Shown here: positions 1 through 39,365 of the stretch, one piece after another | How the letters are laid out: every line of letters starts with the position of its first letter | Position numbering within the stretch: position 1 is the first letter of the stretch | Source of the DNA: Actinoalloteichus hoggarensis | GTDB taxonomy: Bacteria; Actinomycetota; Actinomycetes; Mycobacteriales; Pseudonocardiaceae | Length of the DNA stretch: 64,000 bases | Assembly (NCBI RefSeq): GCF_002234535.1 | Contig: NZ_CP022521.1 | Coordinates: forward strand, 6,494,001-6,558,000 | Reading direction: 5' to 3' | Translations under genes and position numbers: made by a program | The notes under the pieces: model-generated | Databases searched by the model: none | The model's input: the letters and a program-made list of their open reading frames with translations, nothing else | What the model was told of the DNA's origin: nothing

Positions 1-689
1 AGGCGGGTGAACCGGCCGCGCACCCCAACTCGCGGTACTGCACTCCGATGAACCAGTGTCCGGTGCTCGCCCCCGAGTGGGACGATCCGCAGGGCGTCCC
101 GATCTCGGCGATCCTGTTCGGCGGCAGGCGGGCCACCACCGTTCCGCTGGTGGCGCAGGCACGGGACTGGCAGCACGGCGTGTTCCTCGGCGCCACGCTG
201 TCGAGTGAGAAGACCGCGGCGGCGACCGGCGCGGTCGGGCAGGTACGGCGCGACCCGATGGCCATGCTGCCCTTCATCGGCTACAACGCGGGCGACTACT
301 TCCAGCACTGGGTCGATCTCGGCAAGCAGGCCGACGCCGGCGCCCTGCCGTCGATCTTCTACGTGAACTGGTTCCGCCGCGGCGAGGACGGCCGGTTCCT
401 GTGGCCCGGATTCGGCGAGAACTCCCGCGTGCTCAAGTGGATCGTCGAGCGGCTCGACGGAGACGCGACGGCGGCCGAGACCGCCGTGGGTCTGGTCCCC
501 GGCGCCGACGCCCTCGATCTGAGCGGCCTGGACGTGCGGCAGGCGGACGTCGAGGCGGCGCTGGCCGTCGACGCCGAGGAGTGGCGAGCCGAGCTGCCGC
601 TGATCGAGGAGTGGTTCGACACCATCGGGCCCGCGCTGCCGAGCACGATGCGCGACGAGCTGGCCGCGCTGCGGCAGCGGCTCGGCTGA
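1..689 (+). CDS. pckG: Phosphoenolpyruvate carboxykinase (GTP), 3' end only
   Basis: This is the C-terminal 228 residues of a GTP-dependent PEP carboxykinase, which converts oxaloacetate and GTP to PEP, GDP and CO2 in gluconeogenesis. The reading frame is open from base 3, and the upstream codons read [11 protein letters not shown], a segment conserved in this family, so the ATG at 48 is internal and the gene is cut by the window edge. The visible part contains [14 protein letters not shown] and [19 protein letters not shown], both typical of the cytosolic GTP enzyme, and ends in a helical tail. The full protein is normally about 600 residues, so roughly 60 percent lies outside. The P-loop and the active-site cysteine are not visible. 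A GC-rich hairpin follows the stop directly. Confidence 0.96.
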
Positions 690-36752: not shown

Positions 36753-37208
36753 ATGAAGCTCATCCTCACCGCTGACGTCAGCGGTCTCGGCGGCCCCGGC
36801 GACATCGTCGAGGTCAAGGACGGCTACGGCCGCAACTTCCTGGTGCCGCGAGGCCTGGCCATCCTGGCCACGCGCGGCGCGGAGAAGCAGGTCGCCACGA
36901 TCCGCCGTTCCCAGGAGGGCAGGCGGATCCGCGACCTCGACCACGCCAAGGAGATCAAGTCGAGCCTGGAGGGCCTCGGTGCGGTACGTCACCAGGTCCG
37001 CGCCTCGCAGGACAGCGGCAAGCTGTTCGGCTCGGTGACGACGGCCGACGTGGTCACCGCGGTCAAGGCCGCGGGCGGCCCGCTGCTCGACAAGAGGGCG
37101 ATCCAGCTGCCCGGTCACATCAAGAAGACCGGCAAGCACCCGGTGAGCGTCCGGCTCCACCCGGAGGTCACCGTGTCGTTCAACCTCGAGGTCGCCCCGG
37201 CCGAGTGA
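36753..37208 (+). CDS. rplI: 50S ribosomal protein bL9
   Basis: A 151-residue bL9. The N-terminal domain has [24 protein letters not shown] and [17 protein letters not shown], both signatures. A long connecting helix follows ([19 protein letters not shown]), then the C-terminal domain with [22 protein letters not shown] and [25 protein letters not shown] precedes the ATG. It is the last gene of the operon, with a strong terminator 24 nt after its stop. dnaB follows after a long non-coding interval. Confidence 0.98.
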
Positions 37209-37373: not shown

Positions 37374-37565
37374 GATGAGCCGAGTGCCGTGCGCCGTGCG
37401 CCCCGCCCGTCACCGCGCCGATCGGCCCAGTGTTATCACTCAGAAGCACTAGTGGACAGCTTGGCCGGCCCCTGTGGATCATTTCGCCCGATCCAGTCGA
37501 ACGACACGCCGAAGGATCAGATTTCGCGACACGCCGATTGGTGTCCCGAGTAGTTTCCCCACACA

Positions 37566-37683
37566 TTATCCACAGGCGCTGACCTGGCCATTTCATCAAG
37601 GCCACCCAAGTTATCCACAGGTTGTCCCCAGGCTTGCCGCAGGCTGTGGTCAGTTCGCCGGACACATCCCCAGGTTATCCACA
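37566..37683 (+). promoter_or_regulatory. Cluster of DnaA boxes upstream of dnaB
   Basis: TTATCCACA, a perfect match to the DnaA box TTATNCACA, occurs at 37566-37574, 37611-37619 and 37675-37683, all in the same orientation. Near matches flank them: TTGTCCCCA at 37622-37630, ACGTCCACA at 37687-37695, and TGATCCACA on the minus strand at 37473-37481. The stretch 37430-37690 is less GC-rich than its surroundings. It lies 320-430 nt before the dnaB start. DnaA control of dnaB, DnaA titration or an origin-like role are possible; no dnaA or dnaN gene is in the window. Confidence 0.8.
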
Positions 37684-38000
37684 GGCACGTCCACAGGAGT
37701 GTTTGCCTGCTCCAGAAGAGGGATCTAGCGTTCGGTCTCCGGGTGCCGGCGCCCGGGTCCGGCAGGCGGCGTGGGGCCGCCGCGCCGCAGCGGCAGGCCG
37801 ACGGGTCGTCCTCGGGCGAACCGGCTCCGGGGCGACTCGCTCTCGGCGACTGGGCTTCGGCGATGACCCTGTTCCGGCGTGGACCCGGTTCGGTCGGAGA
37901 GCGGCGACGGGCGGGTCACCGGAGCCGGGTTCGATCCGACCGGGGTGGCGGGGATCGACTACGGCGGCAGGAATCGCGGAGCAAGGACCGGAGGGAACAG

Positions 38001-39365
38001 GTGGCTCTGACCGACGATCGCGGAGCGGCGGCGGACAACACGTTCGACCGCCAGCCGCCGCAGGATCTGGCCGCCGAGCAGTCCGTCCTCGGCGGGATGC
38101 TGCTCAGCAAGGACGCCATCGCCGACGTCGTGGAGGTGGTCCGCCCGGACGACTTCTACCGACCCGCGCACCAGGCGATCTACGACTGCATCCTGGACCT
38201 GTACGGCCGGGGCGAACCCGCCGACGCCATCACGGTGTCCGCCGAGCTGGAACGACGGTCCGAGCTGCCCCGGATCGGCGGGGCGCCCTACATGCACACC
38301 CTGATCGCCACCGTGCCCACCGCCGCCAACGCCGGGTACTACGCCGAGATCGTCGCGGAGAAGGCGGTGCTCCGGCGGCTCGTCGAGGCGGGGACCCGCA
38401 TCGTCCAGCTCGGATACCACGGCGCGGAGGGCGCCGCGATCGATGAGGTCGTCGACCGGGCGCAGGCCGCGATCTACGAGGTCACCGAGCGTCGGACCAG
38501 CGAGGACTACGTCGCCCTCGAACACCTGTTGCAGCCGACGATGGACGAGATCGACGCCATCGCCTCGCGCGACGGGCAGTCGCTGGGTGTGCCGACCGGG
38601 TTCACCGACCTGGACGCGGTCACCAACGGCCTGCATCCCGGGCAGATGATCATCGTCGCGGCACGGCCCGGCGTCGGCAAGTCGACGCTCGGCCTCGACT
38701 TCGCCCGCTCCTGCTCCATCAAGCACGGGTTCAGCAGCGTCATCTTCTCCCTGGAGATGAGCAAGACGGAGATCGTGATGCGGATGCTCTCCGCCGAGGC
38801 ACGCATCCGCCTCGGGGACATGCGCGGCGGGAAGATGACCGACGACGACTGGACCAGGCTGGCCAGGAGGATGGGCGAGGTCAGCGAGGCGCCGCTGTTC
38901 GTCGACGACTCCCCGAACCTCACGATGATGGAGATCCGAGCCAAGGCCAGAAGGCTGAAACAGCGCAACGACCTCAAGCTGGTCGTGGTGGACTACCTCC
39001 AGCTGATGAGCTCCGGCAAGCGCGTCGAGTCACGGCAGCAGGAGGTCTCCGAGTTCTCCCGGCATCTCAAGCTGCTCGCCAAGGAGCTGGAGGTCCCCGT
39101 CGTGGCGATCAGCCAGCTCAACCGTGGTCCCGAGCAGCGCACCGACAAGCGGCCGATGCTCTCCGACCTCCGTGAGTCGGGTTCGTTGGAGCAGGACGCG
39201 GACATGGTGCTGCTGATCCATCGACCGGACGCCTTCGAGCGCGACGACCCCCGGATGGGTGAGGCGGACCTGATCCTGGCCAAGCACCGTGCGGGCCCCA
39301 CCACGACCGTCACCCTGGCCCACCAGCTCCACTACAGCCGCTTCGTCGACATGGCACAGAGCTGA
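38001..39365 (+). CDS. dnaB: Replicative DNA helicase DnaB
   Basis: A 454-residue replicative helicase that unwinds DNA ahead of the polymerase as a hexameric ring. GTG 38001 follows GGAGGG at 5 nt; longer frames upstream carry no family sequence. The N-terminal domain begins RQPPQDLAAEQSVLGGMLLS. The RecA-like core has Walker A ARPGVGKST near 222-230, IFSLEMSKTEIVMRML, Walker B LVVVDYLQLM near 330, the SQLNRGPEQR region near 371 and LRESGSLEQDADMVLLIHR near 390. No intein interrupts the Walker A or other motifs, unlike many mycobacterial dnaB genes. It is preceded by a 790-nt non-coding region containing DnaA boxes. Confidence 0.98.
   Translation: MALTDDRGAAADNTFDRQPPQDLAAEQSVLGGMLLSKDAIADVVEVVRPDDFYRPAHQAIYDCILDLYGRGEPADAITVSAELERRSELPRIGGAPYMHTLIATVPTAANAGYYAEIVAEKAVLRRLVEAGTRIVQLGYHGAEGAAIDEVVDRAQAAIYEVTERRTSEDYVALEHLLQPTMDEIDAIASRDGQSLGVPTGFTDLDAVTNGLHPGQMIIVAARPGVGKSTLGLDFARSCSIKHGFSSVIFSLEMSKTEIVMRMLSAEARIRLGDMRGGKMTDDDWTRLARRMGEVSEAPLFVDDSPNLTMMEIRAKARRLKQRNDLKLVVVDYLQLMSSGKRVESRQQEVSEFSRHLKLLAKELEVPVVAISQLNRGPEQRTDKRPMLSDLRESGSLEQDADMVLLIHRPDAFERDDPRMGEADLILAKHRAGPTTTVTLAHQLHYSRFVDMAQS

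Follow-up and report, generated by a model that had tools for sequence, protein, structure and literature searches.

DnaA boxes in helical register with a predicted dnaB promoter in Actinoalloteichus hoggarensis and other Actinomycetes

The rplI-dnaB region and its boxes

The window, by which is meant the whole 64-kb stretch of Actinoalloteichus hoggarensis DNA that was analysed, carries a block of genes whose order, judged from open reading frames and Pfam matches, is rpsF, ssb, rpsR, rplI, a gap of 792 bp, and dnaB. The gap is bounded by rplI (36753..37208, forward strand; ribosomal protein L9, with Pfam Ribosomal_L9_N and Ribosomal_L9_C) and by dnaB (38001..39365, forward strand, GTG start; Pfam DnaB and DnaB_C), which encodes the replicative helicase. 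By DnaB, the closest named relative is Actinoalloteichus caeruleus DSM 43889, with 90% identity. In many members of the family dnaB appears as separate matches within one long open frame (for example in genomes G007, G008, G023, G029 and G033), a pattern such as inteins would be expected to give.

The gap holds a cluster of DnaA boxes, which had been picked out in the first-pass annotation. The three exact copies of TTATCCACA reported there, at 37566, 37611 and 37675, are indeed present, all on the forward strand and within a span of 118 bp, and no further exact copy occurs in the 64-kb window. They form part of a row of six forward positions, R1 to R6. R1 (37555..37563, TTCCCCACA) has two mismatches in the window and R2 (37566..37574) is exact; R3 (37611..37619), also exact, is followed 11 bp on by R4 (37622..37630, TTGTCCCCA, one mismatch); R5 (37675..37683), the third exact box, starts 28 bp 5' of the predicted -35 element, and R6 (37687..37695, ACGTCCACA, two mismatches) starts 16 bp 5' of it, at what is grid position 16 in the relatives. 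An outer DnaA-box-like site with one mismatch (TGATCCACA, 37473..37481) lies on the reverse strand, 230 bp 5' of the -35. The near matches listed earlier, at 37473, 37622 and 37687, were recovered with these mismatch counts, and the cluster is less GC-rich than its surroundings, as had been said: 0.574 over 37473-37695, against 0.704 for the window. Two more forward-strand elements between the boxes, TGACCTGG (37580..37587) and CTGTGGTCAG (37644..37653), fall in conserved columns of the family alignment and may be bound by a second protein; the former is not a box, while the latter could be a weak reverse one. A later family alignment, in which the rows of G002 and G001 are too short, was used for such conserved elements only.

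Downstream of R6 are a predicted -35 element, TTGCCT (37703..37708), and, after a spacer of 17, a predicted -10 element, TAGCGT (37726..37731), both motif matches on the forward strand. Between R6, the last of the box positions, and the -35 there are 7 bp, and the boxes stand upstream of the -35 without overlapping the promoter motif. We infer that TTGCCT-17-TAGCGT is the dnaB promoter. It was found with the actinobacterial TANNNT form of the -10, whereas a scan with the E. coli consensus preferred TGGACA-18-GATCAT (37453-37482), a promoter-like site that lies upstream of the box array and overlaps the reverse box, with none expected in shuffles; the same scan of the region found no terminator. 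The stretch from the predicted dnaB transcription start to the start codon (37732-38000) would be a GC-rich leader of about 260 nt, with an in-frame GTG at 37743.

Conservation of the boxes and their register with the promoter motif

In the 700 bp upstream of dnaB we counted boxes that depart from TTRTCCACA at no more than one position. The sample comprises 34 of 36 genomes of the window's own family (all except G013 and G030), 31 of 33 from other families of the order (G048 and G059 having no usable start), 94 of 135 from other orders of the class (in the other 41 the dnaB match was lacking, split, at a contig edge or not retrieved) and 25 of 73 from other classes, for which 26 loci were retrieved and the incomplete L194 was dropped. 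At least three boxes occur in 33/34, 20/31 and 71/94 genomes of the first three groups, making 124 of 159 in the class; 3 of the 25 genomes of other classes have as many, so the class boundary is not sharp. At least two boxes are found in 34/34, 27/31, 84/94 and 7/25 genomes, respectively, and none at all in 0/34, 1/31, 3/94 and 11/25. Dinucleotide shuffles of the same single regions hold a mean of 0-0.62 boxes, and the 700 bp upstream of crgA, taken as a negative control, hold at least two boxes in none of 30 family genomes. The mean in the window's family is 5.1 boxes, and in the 159 class genomes 490 boxes point forward and 110 in reverse. Among the named relatives (79 of 80 counted, one having no upstream DNA), 61 have at least three boxes and 77 at least two; within the same 79, Pseudonocardia kujensis and Tsukamurella ocularis have no boxes upstream of dnaB. 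Absence from close relatives, which the first-pass annotation had named as a ground for giving up its proposal, is thus not what is seen.

Within the family the box starts follow a template of 0, 11, 56, 67, 120 and 132, some positions being poor boxes in some genomes, and R1 lies 204-460 bp from the dnaB match (449 bp in the window). Of 60 relatives, 20 carry a head-to-tail pair whose boxes are 11 bp apart, TTRTCCMCANNTTRTCCMCA, with 27 copies between them; the reversed control is absent from all 60. Fifteen genomes account for the 19 copies that precede the dnaB match, at a distance of 139-393 bp; one other copy is upstream of dnaN (in G007) and seven are elsewhere.

A promoter motif of the form TTGNNN-16..18-TANNNT starts between +135 and +165 from R1 in 31 of the 34 family genomes, as against 0.006 in base shuffles. 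For the class as a whole it was sought more strictly, with a spacer of 17-18 and a position 10-40 bp after a forward box of no more than two mismatches. So defined, it lies next to a box in 87 of the 159 genomes, belonging to 20 families, where shuffles lead one to expect about 6 (1.6, 1.4, 0.3 and 3.0 in the four groups) and the reversed motif, as a control, gives 2 hits; the other 72 genomes have no motif next to a box. Reverse boxes 229-232 bp before the -35 number 12 among the 87 promoter-bearing loci, that at 37473 in the window included. In family f31, which appears to be Streptomyces-like, all 11 of 11 genomes have the dnaB cluster, 11/11 have a box at 28 bp from the -35, and 11/11 have an exact reverse TTATCCACA about 14 bp before it.

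The distance from the start of a box to the start of the -35 is 16/17, 27-29 or 38/39 bp in 86 of the 87 loci, that is, it moves in steps of about one helical turn. The sole outlier, at 12 bp, belongs to family f32, and 19 of the 20 families are without exception. When forward boxes of at most one mismatch within 180 bp of the motif are taken (n=285, from the 87 genomes and 20 families, with families weighted equally), their positions, measured from the motif, show a 10.9-bp period with a resultant of 0.877, against a maximum of 0.394 in 300 trials with random positions per family; with a random promoter phase per family the observed value was reached in 0 of 20,000. Genomes in which the motif is not recognised have the same box-to-box period (mean cosine 0.71, 20 families), and a spacing near 11 bp is likewise seen among the family's oriC boxes (mean cosine 0.56-0.59), so that phasing among boxes is by itself no proof of a promoter role. 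What the dnaB locus shares with DnaA-regulated promoters is that its boxes stand at a promoter motif in a constrained position.

DnaA boxes elsewhere in the genome

Exact TTATCCACA occurs 9 times in the whole single-contig genome of 6,606,717 bp, and 3 of the 9 are at rplI-dnaB, the only place where the whole-genome scan finds more than one of them close together. The degenerate form TTRTCCMCA occurs 43 times, against 40 for its reversed control; single boxes are thus at background frequency, and it is their clustering that is the signal. A looser search, for at least three boxes of at most one mismatch within 300 bp, covered the window and 20 further stretches, which together make up a small fraction of this genome, and yielded oriC, C1:23529, C1:6427635 and rplI-dnaB. 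Equal clusters at many unrelated loci, raised at the outset as a possible objection, are not seen with exact TTATCCACA or TTRTCCMCA genome-wide or with the looser definition in the scanned stretches; the others are few, and most are near the origin.

At C1:6427635-6427874 the cluster's six boxes (at most one mismatch) lie between two genes that converge on them; by eye, one would encode a sodium:amino-acid carrier and the other an MFS transporter. Two reverse boxes (TTATCCCCA and TTATCCACA) lie at C1:6526-6555, in what by eye is the start of a small gene after a recF-like gene. Far from the origin, at C1:1845344/1845361, 1898675/1898692 and 5847595/5847612, exact TTGTCCACA is paired three times at a spacing of exactly 17 bp; these pairs may be sites of another regulator or a repeat. 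The genome also encodes a second, diverged DnaN-like protein (C1:262980-263960, 35% identity), with similar ones in a number of relatives.

The remaining cluster, at C1:23529-23607, is between crgA and a rhomboid gene that is next to a cyclophilin gene; in this genome it lies between the 3' ends of two genes and not at a promoter. In the 30 of 36 family genomes sampled for it, at least two boxes, mostly 13 bp apart, are present within 700 bp downstream of crgA in 30/30. We take the mycobacterial gene Rv0011c to be crgA. The site is probably the counterpart of the Rv0010c-Rv0011c DnaA site of mycobacteria described in the available passages of Hicks et al. (PMC7738170). As both the dnaB site and the crgA site match, at least two of the mycobacterial DnaA sites other than oriC seem to be common to the window's family.

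Functional readings and known systems

The cluster is quite probably the upstream control region of a DnaA-controlled dnaB promoter. Control of the promoter is the best reading because of the register seen in 20 families: a regulated promoter needs one, and a sink for DnaA does not. Since the boxes share one direction and are whole helical turns apart, DnaA bound to them would form an array along a single side of the DNA, reaching to just before the -35, and would most likely assist RNA polymerase carrying the housekeeping sigma factor in starting transcription of dnaB. The supply of helicase would thus follow the level or the nucleotide state of DnaA, with a possible role for ATP-DnaA. The part of PMC6344877 available counts dnaB of S. 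coelicolor among the members of the HrdB regulon.

According to the accessible passages of Hicks et al. 2020, DnaA binds five M. tuberculosis regions in vitro, namely oriC, Rv0010c-Rv0011c, Rv0057 upstream of dnaB, Rv3843c-RVnc0040 and rpmH-dnaA, and ChIP-seq in M. smegmatis finds the homologs of the same five, that upstream of dnaB included, bound in vivo; the DnaA mutant I282T binds more weakly upstream of dnaB and has lower dnaB expression, with 113 genes altered in all (PMC7738170). The position of the boxes upstream of the -35 and this mutant both favour activation, which is probably the effect of DnaA on dnaB. The activation step comes from that one mutant, in another genus, with its 113 altered genes, and against promoter control as such stand the rival promoter-like site at 37453-37482, the fact that the predicted promoter is a motif match, the 72 class genomes that show no motif next to a box, and the crgA site, which is conserved as well and is not at a promoter. 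Of the three functions first suggested for the cluster, coupling of dnaB to DnaA is the best supported, by the motif in register, by the mycobacterial DnaA binding upstream of dnaB and by the mutant; DnaA titration may be a second role, and a replication element is the part that did not hold up.

A reading in which the cluster serves above all as an origin-proximal sink for DnaA, comparable to E. coli datA or to the clusters known from S. coelicolor and B. subtilis, and its placement at dnaB is secondary, is unlikely. Early duplication of such a cluster would leave less free or ATP-bound DnaA and so prevent re-initiation, and the locus does have several consensus boxes outside oriC and close to the origin, as a titration locus of the datA type has. 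With dnaA starting at C1:1 and dnaN at C1:2966, both outside the window as had been stated at first, oriC can be placed between them, and the cluster lies about 78 kb from it, before dnaA; in the 23 family genomes with dnaB and dnaN on one contig, and the interval not crossing its ends, the two are 43-219 kb apart. DnaA-box clusters of B. subtilis and S. coelicolor are cited beside datA, which works with IHF, in the available passages of PMC5742627. Comparison with oriC, possible in 28 of 36 family genomes (30 loci, two of them unusable), cuts both ways: exact boxes are more numerous in the 700 bp at dnaB than in the 1200 bp at oriC in 18 of 28 genomes, equal in 6 and fewer in 4, a difference too modest for dnaB to be claimed as the generally stronger site, but boxes of at most one mismatch are on average fewer at dnaB, 5.4 against 6.3. 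A sink would not be expected to keep helical step with a promoter motif across 20 families, and in two members of the order, G038 and G053, where dnaB and dnaN are about 385 and 435 kb apart, the boxes (3 each) are still at dnaB.

In E. coli the dnaA promoter is repressed by DnaA itself, and the box positions here reach within 7 bp of the -35, yet repression of dnaB by DnaA from these boxes seems improbable. The boxes of the window keep upstream of the -35 and leave the promoter motif free, and in the mycobacterial mutant less binding went with less, not more, dnaB expression, as far as the accessible text reports (PMC7738170).

A second replication origin, or the remnant of one, is very improbable, even though the phased multi-box array is like that of oriC. 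In 28 of 28 family genomes the most AT-rich 30-bp stretch of the 600 bp upstream of dnaB has less AT than that of the 900 bp upstream of dnaN (means 0.577 and 0.696), and neither dnaA nor dnaN adjoins. An ectopic origin was accordingly rejected, there being neither an AT-rich unwinding element comparable to that of oriC nor a location at dnaA-dnaN, and the earlier suggestion of an ectopic replication element finds no support. With phasing like that of oriC and lower AT, the dnaB array looks like an origin that has its binding part and lacks its unwinding part. The two sites of this genome are alike in box type, and the family's oriC boxes share the phasing near 11 bp; they differ in the AT-rich stretch and in exact TTRTCCACA boxes, one at oriC against three at dnaB. 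Nine of the 28 family genomes have no exact box at oriC; what the available part of PMC4210621 says of the Kutzneria albida oriC, namely that classic boxes are lacking, thus holds for only part of the family. Chance clustering, or an effect of coding sequence, is scarcely credible, for although single boxes are at background frequency genome-wide, the Poisson probability of two more exact sites within 118 bp is about 1e-8, in keeping with the very low chance first estimated, the register is conserved across families, and the boxes are present in relatives.

Beyond DnaA control of dnaB in the window, we would put forward a broader proposal as possible rather than probable: in much of the class Actinomycetes an orisome-like DnaA array, helix-phased in the manner of oriC but without an unwinding element, may be docked at a fixed distance in whole turns, about 16, 28 or 39 bp, from the dnaB promoter, with feed-forward and sink functions combined. 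If that is true, the array would read the DnaA signal that fires oriC and raise the helicase supply at the same moment, while also acting as a DnaA sink, and would provide a built-in feed-forward link between the start of replication and helicase production. Phasing between a DnaA array and the dnaB promoter motif, seen in 20 families, offers a concrete, testable link between initiator and helicase, and the window, with three exact boxes, is a strong case.

Among known systems, E. coli datA and the B. subtilis clusters are alike in being multi-box DnaA sites outside oriC; to our knowledge datA is not a helicase promoter. In S. coelicolor, work of Smulczyk-Krawczyszyn from 2006 reportedly found that clusters near but outside oriC, said to be named H69, H24 and D78, bind DnaA and that their loss leads to more initiation, the function proposed reportedly being titration and not control of dnaB. 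We suspect that H24 is the dnaB region. According to the passages available of PMC8743542, 20 streptomycetes have a conserved origin island, one end of which is marked by dnaB.

DnaA-controlled promoters are already a known kind, and DnaA binding upstream of dnaB is already known in mycobacteria. The phased architecture, a turn-quantised register with the dnaB promoter, was not found described in the accessible text of the literature searched, which covers mostly papers outside subscription, and the passages available of PMC4285127, PMC3411110, PMC13152386, PMC6275241, PMC13270200 and PMC10148868 make no mention of DnaA at dnaB; a term search of PMC5835720 also gave no hit. The published account of the mycobacterial dnaB site differs from ours in that its available passages are without box spacing, promoter register or conservation beyond mycobacteria at dnaB (PMC7738170). 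That site has the same location upstream of dnaB as the present one and, as those passages have it, is bound by DnaA both in vitro and in vivo (PMC7738170), and the Mycobacterium, Mycolicibacter and Mycolicibacterium loci counted here (n=13) have 2-4 boxes, against the mean of 5.1 in the window's family.
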